This document shows positions 44,739 to 51,960 of a stretch of 55,635 bases of DNA, piece by piece. Source of the stretch: Arenicellales bacterium (lineage in GTDB: Bacteria > Pseudomonadota > Gammaproteobacteria > BMS3Bbin11); assembly GCA_029287915.1 (NCBI GenBank), contig JARFQE010000029.1, positions 71,245 through 126,879 on the forward strand. Reading direction: 5' to 3'. A model generated the notes under the pieces. It had not been told where the DNA came from. It saw nothing but the letters and a program-made list of their open reading frames with translations, and did not search any database. A program made the position numbers and the translations under genes. The first letter of the stretch is position 1; the number at the start of each line of letters is the position of its first letter.

Positions 44739-45575
44739 ATGTTGACTACCAATCCTTTCGCTGAAATGTCCGCGTATATACCCGCAGAAGTGATGCAAGC
44801 TTATATCGTAATCATGGTGCTTTTTGTTATTGGCGGCACCATGCTGGACATGATTCACAAGAAAAGCGCTAAATACTTTTTCGAGAATGCAAAAAAAGCT
44901 GAAAAGGCCGCAAAGCGCACTGTTAGCGGCGGCGAAAAAACATCACTCGCTATCCAGACTGTCACAAATGAAGTGTTGACTTCCTCAGAATTCAAAAACC
45001 CTAAGCGCAGAATTTCTCACATTCTGACTATGTACGGGTTCATCCTGTTCGTTGTGACCACTGCCATTATGATATTTTCAGATGCTGTATCAGGCATCGT
45101 TCCCCTGCTGTGGCATATTGGCGCACTGATGCTGTGTGTCGGCGGTTACTGGTTCTGGTTCGCCATCCGTGTCGACGTCAATTCAGAAGGCAAGAAATGG
45201 TATCAATTAGATCGTGCTGACTTGTTTATTGTTTCACTGCTTATGATGTGCACATGGGCACTTATCTGGTCAGTTCTGCAGTCAAATGGTGTTTCTGCAT
45301 GGAGTCAACTGGCCTTTATGCTGTTTATTTTAGCTAGCACTGTACTGTTTGTCGGTGTGTACTTCTCTAAATTTGCTCACATGTTTTTCAAGCCTGCTGC
45401 GGCTTATCAGAAAAAGCTTACCCGGGCAGATGGTTCAAACGAGAATTTGCCTGCTGACTACGATCTGACGGATCCTGCCACTCAGGCGAAGTTTCCGGAT
45501 ATTCCTGAATATATGGGCGACAACCCACCCTACATGGGGCTTGGTATCAAGCGTGAGTCACCAAACCACTACTAG
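44739..45575 (+). CDS. aprM: APS reductase membrane anchor AprM
   Basis: This 278-residue protein is predicted to have about five membrane helices. It starts with a helix near residues 19-38, has a Lys/Ala-rich cytoplasmic loop (about 40-75), then HILTMYGFILFVVTTAIMIF and three further helices, and ends with a Pro-rich soluble tail. AprM is found beside aprBA in sulfur-oxidising gammaproteobacteria such as Chromatiaceae and is thought to pass electrons from AprBA to the quinone pool, in place of the Qmo complex. It is the first gene of aprM-aprB-aprA. Confidence 0.9.
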   Translation: MLTTNPFAEMSAYIPAEVMQAYIVIMVLFVIGGTMLDMIHKKSAKYFFENAKKAEKAAKRTVSGGEKTSLAIQTVTNEVLTSSEFKNPKRRISHILTMYGFILFVVTTAIMIFSDAVSGIVPLLWHIGALMLCVGGYWFWFAIRVDVNSEGKKWYQLDRADLFIVSLLMMCTWALIWSVLQSNGVSAWSQLAFMLFILASTVLFVGVYFSKFAHMFFKPAAAYQKKLTRADGSNENLPADYDLTDPATQAKFPDIPEYMGDNPPYMGLGIKRESPNHY

Positions 45576-45610: not shown

Positions 45611-46093
45611 ATGCCAACTTTTGTATATATGACTCGTTGTGATGGTTGCGGACAGTGTGTTGATATCTGCCCATCTGACATTATGCACATCGATAAAGGT
45701 CTTCGTCGTGCATACAACATCGAACCTAACATGTGCTGGGAGTGCTACTCCTGTGTAAAAGCCTGTCCGCACCACGCGATTGACGTACGTGGTTATGCTG
45801 ATTTTGCTCCGCTGGGCCACTCGGTACGCGTGCATCGTGATGAAGAAAAAGGCGTCATAGCCTGGCGTATCAAGTTCCGCAACGGCAAAAAAGACATGGA
45901 TCTGCTGGCGCCTATCACAACCAAGCCCTGGGGCACCGGGATTCCACAGCTAGCAAACGAAGCAGCACCTAGCAGCGATATGCGTGATAGCCAGCTATTG
46001 TTTAACGAGCCTAAGTATGTCCGCCTGGATGATGGTGATTTACATACGCTGGAATCAAACGGCTTGAAACTTAAAGAAGGGGTTTACTACTAA
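45611..46093 (+). CDS. aprB: Adenylylsulfate reductase beta subunit AprB
   Basis: This 160-residue ferredoxin-like subunit carries two [4Fe-4S] clusters. The first motif is C10-C13-C16-C20P in TRCDGCGQCVDICPSD; the second is C42-C45-C48-C52P in CWECYSCVKACPHHA. Trp43 next to the second motif matches the tryptophan that sits between the cluster and FAD in known AprBA structures. The C-terminal part wraps the alpha subunit. Its stop and the aprA ATG share one base (TAATG). Confidence 0.96.
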   Translation: MPTFVYMTRCDGCGQCVDICPSDIMHIDKGLRRAYNIEPNMCWECYSCVKACPHHAIDVRGYADFAPLGHSVRVHRDEEKGVIAWRIKFRNGKKDMDLLAPITTKPWGTGIPQLANEAAPSSDMRDSQLLFNEPKYVRLDDGDLHTLESNGLKLKEGVYY

Positions 46094-47964
46094 TGGGCTA
46101 CAAGACAATTATTGAAGACGATATCGACGTCCTGGTTGCAGGTGCAGGCCTTGGTGGTACCGGTGCTGCATTCGAAGCAAGATATTGGGGCAAGGACAAA
46201 AAGATTGTCATTGCCGAAAAAGCAAACATCGACCGTTCCGGTGCTGTAGCCCAGGGTCTGTACGCTATCAACTGTTACATGGGTACCCGCTTCGGCGAGA
46301 ACAACCCGGAAGACCATGTTCGCTATGCACGTATCGACCTGATGGGTATGGTCCGTGAGGATCTGGCCTTTGATATGGCGCGCCACGTTGACTCTGCCGT
46401 GCACCAGTTCGAAGAATGGGGTCTGCCTCTGATGAGAGATCCAAAGACCGGTGCTTATCAGCGTGAAGGTCGCTGGCAGATCATGATTCATGGTGAATCC
46501 TACAAGCCGATTGTTGCTGAAGCTGCCAAGAAGTCAGCTGACAAGGTTTTCAACCGTATCTGCGTTACTCATCTGCTGATGGACGAAGCTAAAGACAACC
46601 GTGTTGCAGGTGCTGTCGGCTTCAACGTACGTACCGGTAACTACCACGTATTCAAGTCGAAGACTGTTATCTGTGGCGCTGGTGGTGCTTCTAACATCTT
46701 CAAGCCACGTTCAGTCGGTGAAGGTGCTGGTCGTGTATGGTACGCACCATGGTCTTCTGGCTCTGCATACGGCCTGATGATCGAAGCAGGCGCGAAGATG
46801 ACGCAAATGGAAAACCGTATCGTACTGGCCCGATTCAAAGATGGTTACGGTCCAGTAGGTGCATACTTCCTGCATCTGAAAACTTATACTCAAAACGCCT
46901 ATGGCGAAGAGTACGAATCAAAATGGTTCCCTGAGCTGCAGAAGATGGTTGGTAAAGAGTATCTGGACCCAGAGGCGTCTCACCGTACGCACCGTCCTAT
47001 CCCAACCTGTCTGCGTAACCACGCATTGATCAACGAGGTTAATGCTGGTCGTGGCCCGATTCACATGGTCACCATGGAAGCCTTCCAGGATCCTCATCTT
47101 GAAGAGATCGGTTGGCATAACTTCCTGGGTATGACTGTTGGTCAGGCCGTACTGTGGGCTGCAACTGACGTTGATCCAAAGTATGAGAACCCGGAGCTGA
47201 CTACTTCTGAGCCTTATGTCATGGGTTCACACGCAACCGGTTGTGGTGCATGGTGTTCAGGTCCTGAAGACGTATCACCGGAAGAATACTTCTGGGGATA
47301 TAACCGTATGACCACTGTCGAAGGTCTGTTCGGTGCGGGTGATGCCGTGGGTGGTACGCCACACGCGTTCTCATCAGGTTCTTTCACAGAAGGTCGCCTG
47401 GCTGCAAAAGCTGCCTGTAAGTACATCGATGATGGTAAAGGTGAAGGCATCCGTGTTTCTGATGCCCAGATCAATCGCCGTAAGGAAGAGATCTACAAGC
47501 CACTGGAAACTTACACTGTTGGCCGTAACGAAATTGTTGCAGGCTCAGTTAATCCAAACTACATCAACCCACGTCAGGGTCTGGATCGTCTGCAGAAACT
47601 GATGGATGAGTACTGTGGTGGTTTTGGTGTTAACTACATGACCAACGACAAGCTTCTGAACATCGGCCTGAAGAAGATGGCTGCTCTCGGTGAAGATCTT
47701 GACAAGGTTGCTGCATCAGATATCCACGAGCTGCTGCGTGCATGGGAACTGAAGCATCGTTTCCTGACTTCTGAAAGTGTATTTCACCATACCCTGTTCC
47801 GTGAGGAGACTCGTTGGCCTGGTTACTACTACCGTGGTGACGCGATGAAGGTTGATGACGAAAACTGGCACGTACTGACAGTTTCTCGTCGCGATCCTCA
47901 AACAGGTGAGTACACGATGGAAAAAGCACCTCTTTACCACCTGGTAGGTGACGAAGAGAGCTAA
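46093..47964 (+). CDS. aprA: Adenylylsulfate reductase alpha subunit AprA
   Basis: This FAD enzyme of 623 residues oxidises sulfite plus AMP to APS in the sulfur-oxidising direction. The FAD-binding motif VAGAGLGGTGAAFEARYWG is at about residues 15-33. SGAVAQGLYAINCYMG and the RTHRPIPTCLRNHALINEV region are hallmark AprA blocks. Codon choice is strongly biased to CTG, CGT, GGT and AAC, unlike most neighbours, which points to high expression. A terminator lies 50 bp downstream. With AprM and Sat it forms the sulfite-to-sulfate branch. Confidence 0.98.
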   Translation: MGYKTIIEDDIDVLVAGAGLGGTGAAFEARYWGKDKKIVIAEKANIDRSGAVAQGLYAINCYMGTRFGENNPEDHVRYARIDLMGMVREDLAFDMARHVDSAVHQFEEWGLPLMRDPKTGAYQREGRWQIMIHGESYKPIVAEAAKKSADKVFNRICVTHLLMDEAKDNRVAGAVGFNVRTGNYHVFKSKTVICGAGGASNIFKPRSVGEGAGRVWYAPWSSGSAYGLMIEAGAKMTQMENRIVLARFKDGYGPVGAYFLHLKTYTQNAYGEEYESKWFPELQKMVGKEYLDPEASHRTHRPIPTCLRNHALINEVNAGRGPIHMVTMEAFQDPHLEEIGWHNFLGMTVGQAVLWAATDVDPKYENPELTTSEPYVMGSHATGCGAWCSGPEDVSPEEYFWGYNRMTTVEGLFGAGDAVGGTPHAFSSGSFTEGRLAAKAACKYIDDGKGEGIRVSDAQINRRKEEIYKPLETYTVGRNEIVAGSVNPNYINPRQGLDRLQKLMDEYCGGFGVNYMTNDKLLNIGLKKMAALGEDLDKVAASDIHELLRAWELKHRFLTSESVFHHTLFREETRWPGYYYRGDAMKVDDENWHVLTVSRRDPQTGEYTMEKAPLYHLVGDEES

Positions 47965-48123: not shown

Positions 48124-48474
48124 ATGAATATTCTTGAAAAAACAGATGAAGAGATATTGGAACTTGCTCACCCAATGTGGGCGGATCTTGTAAAGTACTC
48201 TAATGAACAAAACTACGGTGCTTTCACGCGTAACTTTTCGAGTACTTTGATCAAGGGTGCTAATGAAGTTGAAATGGGCAGGCAGTTTGCCAGAAGTGAG
48301 CTTGCGAAAAACCTGTCAGAAGATTATGAATACCTTGGCATGATACGTCGCGGTGAACATGTCACGGTTTTGTACAAAGTAACCAATAAAAATGATGGTG
48401 GTGAATGGCTCGGCAGACTGGTACTGGGTTACGAAAAAGACAAGGTGAAAATTTTTGGTTGTACGCTGTTCTAA
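48124..48474 (+). CDS. Hypothetical small soluble protein downstream of aprA
   Basis: This 116-residue protein has no signal peptide. Its helix-strand pattern (WADLVKYSNEQNYGAFTRNF, EYLGMIRRGEHVTVLYKVT, GEWLGRLVLGYE, VKIFGCTLF) is like a small SnoaL/DUF4440-type alpha+beta barrel, but no motif proves that. GGAGATG precedes the ATG by a few bases. It is followed by the SlyD-like and TPR genes on the same strand, which suggests a small operon behind aprMBA. Confidence 0.6.
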   Translation: MNILEKTDEEILELAHPMWADLVKYSNEQNYGAFTRNFSSTLIKGANEVEMGRQFARSELAKNLSEDYEYLGMIRRGEHVTVLYKVTNKNDGGEWLGRLVLGYEKDKVKIFGCTLF

Positions 48475-48521: not shown

Positions 48522-49031
48522 ATGTCAGATACAATTGAAGACGAAAAATTCGTTGAACTGAATTACAAGGTCGTCGATGACAAAACAGGTGATGTACTTG
48601 TTACTGTGGATTATCCCCTCGGCTATGTTCATGGTGTGAATGATGTGATGTCTGAAGAGGTAACAAAACAACTGTATGGTAAAAAAGTCGGAGATATCAT
48701 CGAAGTGCCCATTGATACAACCCAGTTATATGGCGAAAGAGATGAGTCCCTGGTATTTACCGACCGTATCGAAAATGTCCCGGAGGAATACCGGGAGATT
48801 GGTATGACCATCACCATGGAAAATGAAAAGGGTGAAATGAAGAATTTTATTGTCACCCGTTTCGATGACAAGACCTTAACCATCGATGGTAATAATCCAC
48901 TTTGTGGCCGGGAAGTGACTTTTGTACTGGAAGTTCTATCTATACGTGACGCGACCGATGAAGAAATCGACCTGGGTGGCGCAGTCGATGACAACCCGGA
49001 TATCAATGAAATACTCGAACGAGCAGAATGA
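48522..49031 (+). CDS. SlyD-like FKBP-type peptidyl-prolyl isomerase
   Basis: The 169-residue protein follows the SlyD plan: an FKBP half (VELNYKVVDDKTGDVL, then GYVHGVNDVMSEEVTKQLYG), an inserted IF chaperone domain (about residues 70-125, TTQLYGERDESLVF), and a return strand (DGNNPLCGREVTFVLEVLSI). SlyD proteins catalyse proline isomerisation and help insert metals such as nickel. The His-rich tail of E. coli SlyD is missing and the end is acidic. Its ATG context overlaps the TPR gene by 4 bp (ATGA). Confidence 0.75.
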   Translation: MSDTIEDEKFVELNYKVVDDKTGDVLVTVDYPLGYVHGVNDVMSEEVTKQLYGKKVGDIIEVPIDTTQLYGERDESLVFTDRIENVPEEYREIGMTITMENEKGEMKNFIVTRFDDKTLTIDGNNPLCGREVTFVLEVLSIRDATDEEIDLGGAVDDNPDINEILERAE

Positions 49032-50050
49032 AGTTCTCAAATAATTACATCCTTTACCCTGACAACAGGGCCCTGCAAGAGGCGATTTCAGACTCTCGAG
49101 ACCTGCTGACTCCTGAACAGTCTAAATCACTTTTCCCAGACAGGAGTGTTACCGTTGCTGACAATTTTCTTTACACAAGGGGAAATTTTGAACAGCAGCG
49201 TTACAGTACAGCTATTTATGAAAGCCTGCGTGATGCACTGGAGTCAACACTTTCTGATGATTTTCGTAACAAAGATCCACTAGCCTGGGCTGAAACACAG
49301 AATAAACTCGGCAGTATTCTTGCCGCACTGGGGCAACATCAGAGTAGTGCAGAATTGTATGAAGAGGCCATACAGCATTTTAAAGAAGCATTGAAAGAAA
49401 CTGACCAGGTGAGGTCACCTTCTGAATGGGCAACCACGCAGTTTAACCTGGGTACGGCAAACCAGGCACTTGGCCGCCTGGTTAATGAAAAAAAATCATT
49501 AAAAACTGCTGTAGATGCCTATACCAAAGCCTTATTGGTATGGTCTAAAGATGAAACACCTGAACAGTGGATGTTGGCCATGCATCAGCTTGGCGTAACA
49601 CTGCATACCTATGGATGCCTGCTACAAGGTAACCGAAATCTTCAAAAATCCGTCGTCGCTTATAAGAACGCACTTTCGGTACTCGATGCAGATAATTATG
49701 CTTTCGAGTTAGCCGCGACGCACAATAATTGTGGGGCGGTGTTACATAACCTTGCTGAATCAGAAGAAAATCCGGAACGGCTAGAAGAAGCAATAAGGTC
49801 CTACGAAAAGGGCTGGAAGGTCTGTATGGAGCAGCAACTTCCTGTACACCTTGCAGTGCTATGCAGGGTAAACAAGACGACGGCGCGATGTGTACTGGCT
49901 GAATTAACCAACGATACGGTCCTTGCAGAAGAAGTGGCCGATGAATTTGAAGTTATCCTGGAATGTTTTCCACACGCTTTACAACCTCTATGCGCAAAAC
50001 ATTGCGAAGTGCAGGTAAACAAAGCGCGAGGATTAGCGAAATCGGGGTGA
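49028..50050 (+). CDS. Tetratricopeptide-repeat protein
   Basis: This soluble 340-residue helical protein has at least four to five TPR-like units of about 45 residues, seen from repeated lines such as WAETQNKLGSILAALG, WATTQFNLGTANQALG, WMLAMHQLGVTLHTYG and LAATHNNCGAVLHNLA. It lacks a signal peptide, so the protein is cytoplasmic. TPR proteins act as scaffolds. Overlap with the SlyD-like gene suggests a joint chaperone or assembly function; whether AprBA is the client is inference. Confidence 0.78.
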   Translation: MKFSNNYILYPDNRALQEAISDSRDLLTPEQSKSLFPDRSVTVADNFLYTRGNFEQQRYSTAIYESLRDALESTLSDDFRNKDPLAWAETQNKLGSILAALGQHQSSAELYEEAIQHFKEALKETDQVRSPSEWATTQFNLGTANQALGRLVNEKKSLKTAVDAYTKALLVWSKDETPEQWMLAMHQLGVTLHTYGCLLQGNRNLQKSVVAYKNALSVLDADNYAFELAATHNNCGAVLHNLAESEENPERLEEAIRSYEKGWKVCMEQQLPVHLAVLCRVNKTTARCVLAELTNDTVLAEEVADEFEVILECFPHALQPLCAKHCEVQVNKARGLAKSG

Positions 50051-50256
50051 GCGCCAGGAATATGAATAAACTACAGAATTTATTAATTAGCTCATGCCCT
50101 GTATAAAAAATATTATATGAATTCAATTTAATGTTTTTGCTTCAAAAGGGTGAAAGTGAGATAATTATCGATTGTGAACTGCATTTCTCGCAGTGCTTAA
50201 CAAGAATTTCAGATAGAAATTCGATTGCGAATTTCAATTAAATTAGGAGATTACAA

Positions 50257-50424
50257 ATGAGCGGAGCCGGCCCTACAACCCGACCAAAAGTACCTGAAGG
50301 AAAAGCACGTTTTGTGACGACTACTCAGGGTGAGATTAAAGAAGGTGCTTTCTTTGTTGGTTACAAGACTACCTGGGAACCATTTCAAAAGGAAGCGAAG
50401 TACCAAACTCCCAAAAAACCATAG
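50257..50424 (+). CDS. 55-residue protein of unknown function
   Basis: ATG 50257 is preceded by AGGAG with 7 nt spacing, and a strong terminator follows about 65 bp after the stop. The 55-residue product (MSGAGPTTRPKVPEGKARFV, later FQKEAKYQTPKKP) is basic and rich in Pro, Lys and Thr, with no signal or membrane segment. The frame is confirmed by a frameshifted paralogue at 51797-51960 that keeps KVxEG, RF, and QKEA-Y--PK-P in register. I do not recognise the family. A role in the apr neighbourhood is only suggested by position. Confidence 0.75.
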   Translation: MSGAGPTTRPKVPEGKARFVTTTQGEIKEGAFFVGYKTTWEPFQKEAKYQTPKKP

Positions 50425-50483
50425 TATATTAATCGTGCTGACCTGTAAGGCCTGGCAGCAAGACTCAAAGTTGGATCCAGGTA

Positions 50484-50516
50484 TAAAAAAAGCACGCTCA
50501 TAGCGTGCTTTTTTTT
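50484..50516 (+). terminator. Terminator after the 55-codon gene
   Basis: AGCACGC / GCGTGCT form a perfect 7-bp stem with loop TCATA, flanked by an A-run and a T-run. It works for either strand. Confidence 0.92.
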
Positions 50517-50632
50517 GCCCCCCCCCATAAACAGTGAAGCAGTGAAGGGATTATATTGCGGCAGGTTCCATGTGCCTTTTTACGATGGCATAGAATATTG
50601 CTGGGAAAGCTGAATACTGGCTGCACTCACGT

Positions 50633-51061
50633 CTATATCCGCTCGGAAAGTTCGTAATCCACATTAATAAAGGCACCAATCTCAGCACAAAACTTGATCA
50701 CTCTTGAACCGAAACCCACTTCCGGGCAGCTTTCATCTTTATCTACCGACAGGGTCAGGACGACGCCTATTCTGGGCGATAAATTATGGCTCTTACAAAC
50801 TTCTATAATTTTGTCTTTAGCCGGTTCAATTTTTTTAAGTATTTCATCGTCAATGAGTTTATAAATATCCATTTCCTGATTATCTGACGTGATTGTGTCG
50901 GTTGATAATTCCCAGGAACTGATGACAGGCTTGTCGAGGCTGCTAGTGGCACCGGCATCATCAGTTGAGGTGGGTTCCAGATCCAGCAATCGCGTAATGT
51001 CATCGGGATTGAAATGATAACCAACAAGAGCGAAGTAAGCCCGTCCTTTGTTCGATGCCAA
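50633..51061 (-). CDS. DUF4279-domain protein
   Basis: This 142-residue protein begins with the DUF4279 pattern: AYFALVGYHFNPDDITRLLD near residue 8, then SSWELST and a C-terminal VDKDESCPEVGFGSRVIKFC and INVDYEL. Function of the domain is unknown. It stands alone on the minus strand, and the nearest upstream promoter region (51062-51299) is shared with the HIT gene. Confidence 0.7.
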   Translation of the reverse strand: MASNKGRAYFALVGYHFNPDDITRLLDLEPTSTDDAGATSSLDKPVISSWELSTDTITSDNQEMDIYKLIDDEILKKIEPAKDKIIEVCKSHNLSPRIGVVLTLSVDKDESCPEVGFGSRVIKFCAEIGAFINVDYELSERI

Positions 51062-51299
51062 GATATTTTCCTCGTCAACAAATAGTAGATACGGAATCGG
51101 ATTATAGCGTGTAAGTCGAATATTTACTGTATTAACTTTATTACGGGCGATGTGACGAACTATTAATTACATTTTTGTTTAAAAAGGTGTGAAAATATAA
51201 AAACATGTGTAGTTTTCAGCTGCATTTTTTTGTAGAGGCTGTCAAAGTATTTCTGAATTCTTTGGCTAACAAAGTGAGTTAGACGAAAGGTATTAAAGT

Positions 51300-51713
51300 T
51301 TGTCGACTGAAGAAAAACAGGAGAAAAAAAGAGACCCCAATAATCCATGTCTGTTTTGTACTGATCCACGTGGGGTATCATTGCAGAATGAACTTGCTTA
51401 TAGTGCCCGCGACACCTACGCGGTGAGCCCGGGGCATACCGTGGTTATCCCGCGTCGCCATGTTGCTAGCTTTTTTGACCTGACACCGCAAGAGATAAAC
51501 GCCTGCATGGAACTGATTACCGAGGAGCGCGAGCTGCTGGACGAGGAATTTAACCCTGATGGCTACAATATCGGCGTTAACGTGGGGCCGGCGGCAGGGC
51601 AGAGTATCCTGCATGTCCATATTCACATTATTCCCCGCTATAAGGGTGATGTTGAGAATCCCCAGGGGGGTGTGCGGCATGTGATTCCCAAGAAGGCACA
51701 TTACAAGCGCTAG
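51300..51713 (+). CDS. HIT-family protein with zinc-binding CxxC
   Basis: This 137-residue histidine-triad hydrolase has HVHIHIIPRYKGD (His-x-His-x-His) near residue 109 as the catalytic loop. An N-terminal CLFC near residue 17 and the RHV motif complete the zinc site of the Hint/HinT group. HIT proteins hydrolyse nucleoside phosphoramidates or dinucleotides. The only start in a good place is TTG at 51300, with GAAAGG upstream. It is not linked to other genes in an obvious way. Confidence 0.85.
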   Translation: MSTEEKQEKKRDPNNPCLFCTDPRGVSLQNELAYSARDTYAVSPGHTVVIPRRHVASFFDLTPQEINACMELITEERELLDEEFNPDGYNIGVNVGPAAGQSILHVHIHIIPRYKGDVENPQGGVRHVIPKKAHYKR

Positions 51714-51796
51714 ATGGCGTTATTTGAGTCAGATAAGTGGGAGGGGTCAACATAACTTTCTATATTCCTCCCTACTCAGCCATTAGCGACAGCATG

Positions 51797-51960
51797 ATGA
51801 GTGCTACATATGTGATGCCAGGTCCAAGGTTGCCGAGGGCTATTCACGCTTTCTGAAAACCAGTCAGATGGAGACTAATCAAAATGGTTTCGTTGATTAC
51901 CAAACCATCAGAAAGTCTTTGCAGAAAGAGGCCGAATATACTATCCCAAAACGGCCTTAA
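51797..51960 (+). pseudogene. Frameshifted paralogue of the 55-residue protein
   Basis: From ATG 51797 ten codons are followed by a one-base loss; after it the frame reads KVAEGYSRFLKTSQ, then NGFVDYQTIRKSLQKEAEYT and PKRP to TAA at 51958. This lines up with the gene at 50257: both have exactly ten residues before KVxEG, then RF, then QKEA-Y and PK-P. No good ribosome site precedes it. The match proves the reading frame of both copies and shows this one is broken. Confidence 0.75.

Follow-up and report, generated by a model that had tools for sequence, protein, structure and literature searches.

A conserved 55-residue protein family beside the AprM-type APS reductase genes and its predicted structured leaders

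The locus and its two fam55 copies

The genes of an AprM-type APS reductase and, behind them, two copies of a gene for a small protein lie in the window, the whole stretch of 55,635 nucleotides that was analysed. The name fam55 is used here for the family of the 55-residue protein encoded at 50257-50424. Its genes can be preceded by one of two leaders, a hairpin (class 2, model R1) or a pair of interleaved stems (class 1, model R2). The features of the locus are the following:

44739-45575, plus strand: aprM, coding for the membrane protein of lineage I apr loci (name given from position and literature; distribution)
45611-46093, plus strand: aprB (named from its position ahead of aprA and from a cysteine motif)
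46093-47964, plus strand: aprA (TIGR02061, 1093 bits)
48124-48474, plus strand: p116, 116 residues, without a known family and constant in the locus (family and locus searches)
48522-49031, plus strand: SlyD-like FKBP protein (NF008008, 60.8 bits, below the cut-off of 174)
49028-50050, plus strand: TPR protein (PF13424)
50163-50206, plus strand: diverged class 2 hairpin leader of copy 1, with the inner stem ACTGC/GCAGT kept (R1, 12.4 bits, E 0.64)
50257-50424, plus strand: fam55 copy 1, intact 55-residue protein (open reading frame, six-frame and profile searches, dN/dS)
50485-50515, plus strand: probable copy 1 terminator, formed by a perfect inverted repeat (14 nt) and a T run (repeat search)
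50633-51061, minus strand: DUF4279 protein, a frequent fam55 neighbour (PF14106, E 1.8e-19)
51201-51248, plus strand: class 2 hairpin leader before the HIT gene, not before fam55 (R1, 31.7 bits, E 2.2e-6)
51300-51713, plus strand: HIT-domain protein, a frequent fam55 neighbour (PF01230, E 2.1e-22)
51725-51802, plus strand: class 1 leader belonging to copy 2, with part of stem 1 disrupted (R2, 31.0 bits, E 1.1e-6)
51797-51960, plus strand: fam55 copy 2, frameshifted and apparently decaying (six-frame search, profile, conserved columns)

The aprM product has no Pfam match above cut-off. Present in all ten lineage I loci without fam55 and in 66 of 80 fam55 loci (the best 80 of 211), p116 seems to belong to the apr locus as a constant component so far undescribed. 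The SlyD-like protein, which matches models of FKBP peptidyl-prolyl isomerases far under their cut-off, is constant in lineage I apr loci, and the HIT gene is found in 39 of the same best 80 of 211 fam55 loci. By its position, Alvin_1122 of Allochromatium is presumably p116 rather than fam55. The expression of this gene, a conserved hypothetical whose tag follows that of aprA, falls with the dsr genes on pyrite (available part of PMC11267869).

Copy 1 is an open frame of 55 codons preceded by an AGGAG ribosome site and followed by the inverted repeat running into T residues, in agreement with the preliminary description, which had seen there a gene with a ribosome site and a terminator. The terminator pattern scan found none by its rule, and it missed this repeat because the T run is part of the stem. 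All 23 columns conserved at 90% or more across fam55 are intact in copy 1.

Copy 2 is found with copy 1 as query in a six-frame search of the same genome (E 1.1e-6, 47% identity), and the fam55 profile, of which copy 2 is one of the 21 rows, matches it at E 9.1e-24; with these two values, the resemblance is not due to chance. The translation of 51826-51957 reads KVAEGYSRF...PKRP, and the ATG at 51797 is separated from the KV codon by 29 nt instead of the 30 expected, which bears out the single deleted base proposed for this copy. Copy 2 has also lost five of its 19 covered columns conserved at 90% or more (P, G, W, F, and T), and both a ribosome site and a terminator repeat were looked for there and are absent. 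Because of these losses it looks like a decaying gene, as had been suggested along with the frameshift.

The same description took the copies to be recently duplicated, and this part does not stand. They share 48% identity over 44 residues, a divergence which, judged from the sequences, excludes a recent duplication. A 32-row clade with a one-residue insertion (SH-aLRT 99) includes copy 1 and leaves copy 2 outside, their leaders are of different types (a diverged class 2 for copy 1, class 1 for copy 2), and their two positions are each singly occupied in other genomes. Within the genus, two copies occur in one genome, one copy at differing places in two (the first place in G004, the second in G002), and none was found in four, G005 included. 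The G002 gene (L114) is the nearest homologue of copy 2 with unsaturated dS (dN 0.22, dS 0.43). An AU test, on 55 columns only, does not reject the grouping of the copies as sisters (p 0.494). A separate origin of the two copies, rather than a sister duplication, is likely.

A conserved family and its tie to the AprM-type APS reductase

A search with the single protein recovers fam55 in 21 of 144 related genomes, while the profile recovers it in 37 of 369 genomes of the class and in 10 of 398 genomes of the phylum, eight of these ten belonging to other classes. A scan of named genomes yielded 211 stretches encoding fam55 relatives, the best 80 of which, including a few near-identical pairs, were kept for the analysis of loci. 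Cultured Thiohalophilus thiocyanatoxydans and Thioalkalivibrio strains carry the gene, which is thus open to experiment. Members from the best 80 of 211 loci are 51-56 residues long, with a net charge of +1 to +9 (median +3.5) and a cysteine in only four of the 80. Over 328 pairs with dS between 0.2 and 1, which are not independent of each other, dN/dS has a median of 0.22, and on this pattern of substitutions fam55 is a real protein under purifying selection. The preliminary description had proposed a real protein family, naming the absence of homologues and a missing dN/dS constraint as the findings that would speak against it; homologues exist and dN/dS is low.

No match above cut-off was obtained for 63 members in Pfam or NCBIfam (best E 0.021, Menorin, 6/63), nor one in PHROGs, nor any sequence match among the solved structures of the PDB, so that the protein still has no recognised family. 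With 63 rows, the AlphaFold prediction has two strands but lacks a compact core (pLDDT 79, pTM 0.45), as for a protein that would fold on a partner; with 21 rows the model is poor (pLDDT 67). Foldseek with the fam55 model gave no match under E 3.6, and neither it nor the PDB search returned a structural or sequence relative pointing to a binding mode.

At 69 of the 80 loci (best 80 of 211), fam55 lies beside at least one of AprM, AprB, AprA, p116, and the SlyD-like protein, and the eight loci found in other classes of the phylum are linked to apr without exception. Eleven loci fall outside this linkage: eight stand alone, and three, on short contigs, have TPR, HIT, or DUF4279 genes as neighbours. 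Among the 144 genomes, fam55 is present in 17 of the 22 with AprM vs. 4 of the 122 without (Fisher p 2.6e-14, uncorrected for kinship); completeness is 60-88% in these last four, and in three of them the contig with fam55 also bears other genes of the locus. AprA scores form two groups, with at least 1041 bits in 39 of 369 genomes, and fam55 accompanies 29 of these 39, vs. 1 of the 61 genomes that have lower-scoring AprA alone, this one being 55% complete. The high group is assigned to SOB lineage I because AprM co-occurs with it (the 22 AprM genomes include all 17 with high-scoring AprA) and because the available part of PMC2211403 pairs lineage I AprA with aprM, and lineage II with qmo. The AprA score alone is an imperfect divider, since G046 and G007 have AprM with lower scores, the AprA of G007 being a fragment. 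What fam55 accompanies is thus AprM, or AprA of lineage I, but not AprA of the Qmo type, a label taken from the AprA score and not from qmo genes. Co-occurrence with aprMBA was the check initially proposed, and together with the linkage it supports fam55 as a candidate accessory gene for sulfur oxidation.

Ten of the 39 lineage I genomes are devoid of fam55 though aprM-aprB-aprA, p116, and the SlyD-like gene are in place, which is why fam55 is considered optional and is not called an obligate subunit. In the eight stand-alone genomes, lineage I AprA is full in three, a fragment in one, and absent from four; p116 is present in five and DsrA in seven, while three have neither AprA nor p116 (for one of the eight there is a completeness figure, 88%).

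Two conserved leaders upstream of fam55

One of two conserved leaders, either a covarying hairpin or pseudoknot-like interleaved stems, is present at 49 of the 80 loci (best 80 of 211), and neither model finds a leader at the other 31. At E <0.001, class 2 is matched at 21 and class 1 at 28 of these 80 loci, counts which take in the training rows. In the 1.06 Mb of loci searched, fam55 begins 1-31 nt after each of the 49 matches: 19-31 nt after class 2 leaders and 1-7 nt after class 1 leaders. The class 2 alignment (A4) leaves out the window copy, L071, and L080, and the class 1 alignment (A3) leaves out the window copy, L075, L103, L112, L136, and L140-L142. Beyond the training rows, class 2 matches include L080, L040, L041, L215, and L212 (from another class), and class 1 matches include L075, L213, and genome matches in G040 and G138. 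Strong matches in the 144 genomes number seven for R1 (E ≤1.1e-4) and eight for R2 (E ≤5.4e-5), all directly upstream of fam55 except the one before the HIT gene in the window. Each model also has seven weak genome matches; at those in G016 and G005 no gene of the apr locus is near.

The class 2 hairpin has GCTGC/GCAGY as its inner stem, together with an outer stem, and 92% of cells are paired. Cells changed on both sides number 16, vs. 6.3 ± 2.0 in shuffles, and the pairs that are not Watson-Crick comprise 52 G-U vs. 6 A-C. In class 1, GTCAG/CTGAC is interleaved with GGGAGG/CCTCCC and 94% of cells are paired, with five pairs changed on both sides (2.1 in shuffles), 16 G-U vs. 5 A-C pairs, and loop lengths that vary among loci. 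With two interleaved stems kept by paired changes, it is a predicted H-type pseudoknot. A TATAAT-like box lies about 3 nt before its stem 1 (19 of 27 within one mismatch), which puts the full transcription of this stem in question. The type of leader does not track the type of fam55 protein. Compared with Rfam, 12 loci gave no family at its gathering score, the ten matches listed for the window up to E 10 all fall short of it, and no publication naming fam55 or its leaders was found in a search mostly confined to literature outside subscription. Both elements are apparently undescribed and may be cis-acting RNA elements.

In the window, the R1 match of the copy 1 leader is not significant by itself (fold z -0.89). 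At 50198-50240, this leader contains extra overlapping hairpins (GAATTTC / GAAATTCG / CGAATTTC) that could form alternatively and are absent from the relatives' leaders inspected. The HIT gene starts 51 nt after the class 2 leader at 51201-51248, whose single-sequence fold is not significant; the arrangement at 51201-51299 is as if this leader had once served a fam55 gene whose place HIT and copy 2 have since taken. Elsewhere, two Thioalkalivibrio leaders (L138:4672-4738 and L140:9923-9993) have C-rich interleaved stems (GGGGGG/CCCCC) and lack the TATAAT-like box. The Woeseiaceae-type copies (L089-L095, L104) have neither leader and show a short upstream palindrome, GTCACGYGTGAC in several.

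Proposed role and comparison with known systems

The family, the selection acting on it, its linkage, and its phylogenetic profile are shown by sequence comparison, and the role proposed here builds on them. We hold with about even confidence that fam55 is a conserved small soluble protein serving as an optional, cofactor-free accessory or regulatory subunit of membrane-bound AprMBA, the Apr partner being what we infer. It would act on this sulfite-oxidising complex by binding AprBA, AprM, or the AprBA-AprM interface via its conserved V-G-Y-x-T-x-W...FQKE...PKxP half, and the binding would tune docking, assembly, or activity. Electron transfer by fam55 itself is not expected, since its cysteines are very rare and it lacks a membrane segment. 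In many lineages it would have a short messenger to itself, headed by a structured 5′ leader, in which case the amount of fam55 would probably be controlled beyond transcription initiation and independently of the apr operon. More tentatively, and with some doubt on our part, the two unrelated leaders might exist almost solely to control fam55, and fam55 in its turn would determine how active the AprM-type APS reductase is or how it docks at the membrane. The last step of sulfur oxidation would then have a dedicated valve that works post-transcriptionally.

Could the leaders instead act as DNA, as operators or parts of a promoter to which a transcription factor binds? The TATAAT-like box of class 1, from which a usual start would omit part of the stem, and the weakness of single-sequence folds (z +0.5 to -2.0) would fit such elements, but the excess of G-U over A-C in both classes is a strand-specific mark of RNA and leads us to consider the leaders as RNA rather than DNA. 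The double changes in class 2 and the variable loops of class 1 also argue against operators, which we find unlikely. As RNA structures, the leaders might be bound by fam55 itself, a small basic protein that would act as an autoregulator or translational regulator on structured leaders, its own first. The gene specificity of the 49 matches and the positive median charge agree with this, but the leaders are of two unrelated types, 31 of the best 80 of 211 loci have neither, their type is independent of that of the protein, and the family libraries contain no RNA-binding match to fam55; we judge autoregulation quite improbable.

The remaining alternatives bear on the link to Apr. If the proximity to apr were a mere clustering of sulfur genes, fam55 could serve reverse-Dsr sulfur oxidation or general sulfur handling, a reading suggested by the stand-alone genomes, where DsrA is found in seven of eight vs. 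any AprA sequence in four. The single occurrence among the 61 genomes with the other AprA type alone, and a linkage to apr clusters that extends over at least two classes, make it a doubtful one in our view. A selfish or hitch-hiking gene without any role in sulfur metabolism would suit the frequent gains, losses, and moves, such as those in the genus of the window, but the strong selection, the tight tie to one enzyme type across classes, and a search for plasmid-borne copies that found none render it very improbable.

Several known systems resemble fam55 or its leaders. Ribosomal protein leaders are autoregulated, short, gene-specific, and structured, with several leader types per gene. The fam55 leaders are similar in being short structured elements of several types before a small basic protein, but fam55 has no ribosomal family match, and its autoregulation is a hypothesis. 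SAM-II and preQ1 are small pseudoknot riboswitches. The class 1 leader is like them in its two interleaved stems close to the ribosome site, but differs in having no Rfam match at gathering score in the 12 loci and the window. CsrA (56-58 residues) is close to fam55 in length and strand content, and as a relative it was rejected, its Foldseek values (E 3.9-8.9, probability ≤0.18) being at chance level.

For fam55 as an accessory of AprMBA, the closest comparison is the AprM-type (SOB lineage I) aprMBA locus itself. The native electron partner of this APS reductase is still unknown in the available part of PMC2211403, and AprM is without a recognisable cofactor site in that of PMC3779200. A protein that follows one enzyme type across classes and has a structured leader would be a handle on AprMBA assembly or control. 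The order aprM-aprB-aprA described in these papers is identical in the window, and fam55 tracks the enzyme type they define. Their accounts, in the parts available, comprise aprM, aprB, aprA, and sat; the p116, SlyD-like, TPR, and fam55 genes behind them are a feature of the window, and with p116 and the SlyD-like gene the apr locus has constant members beyond these accounts.
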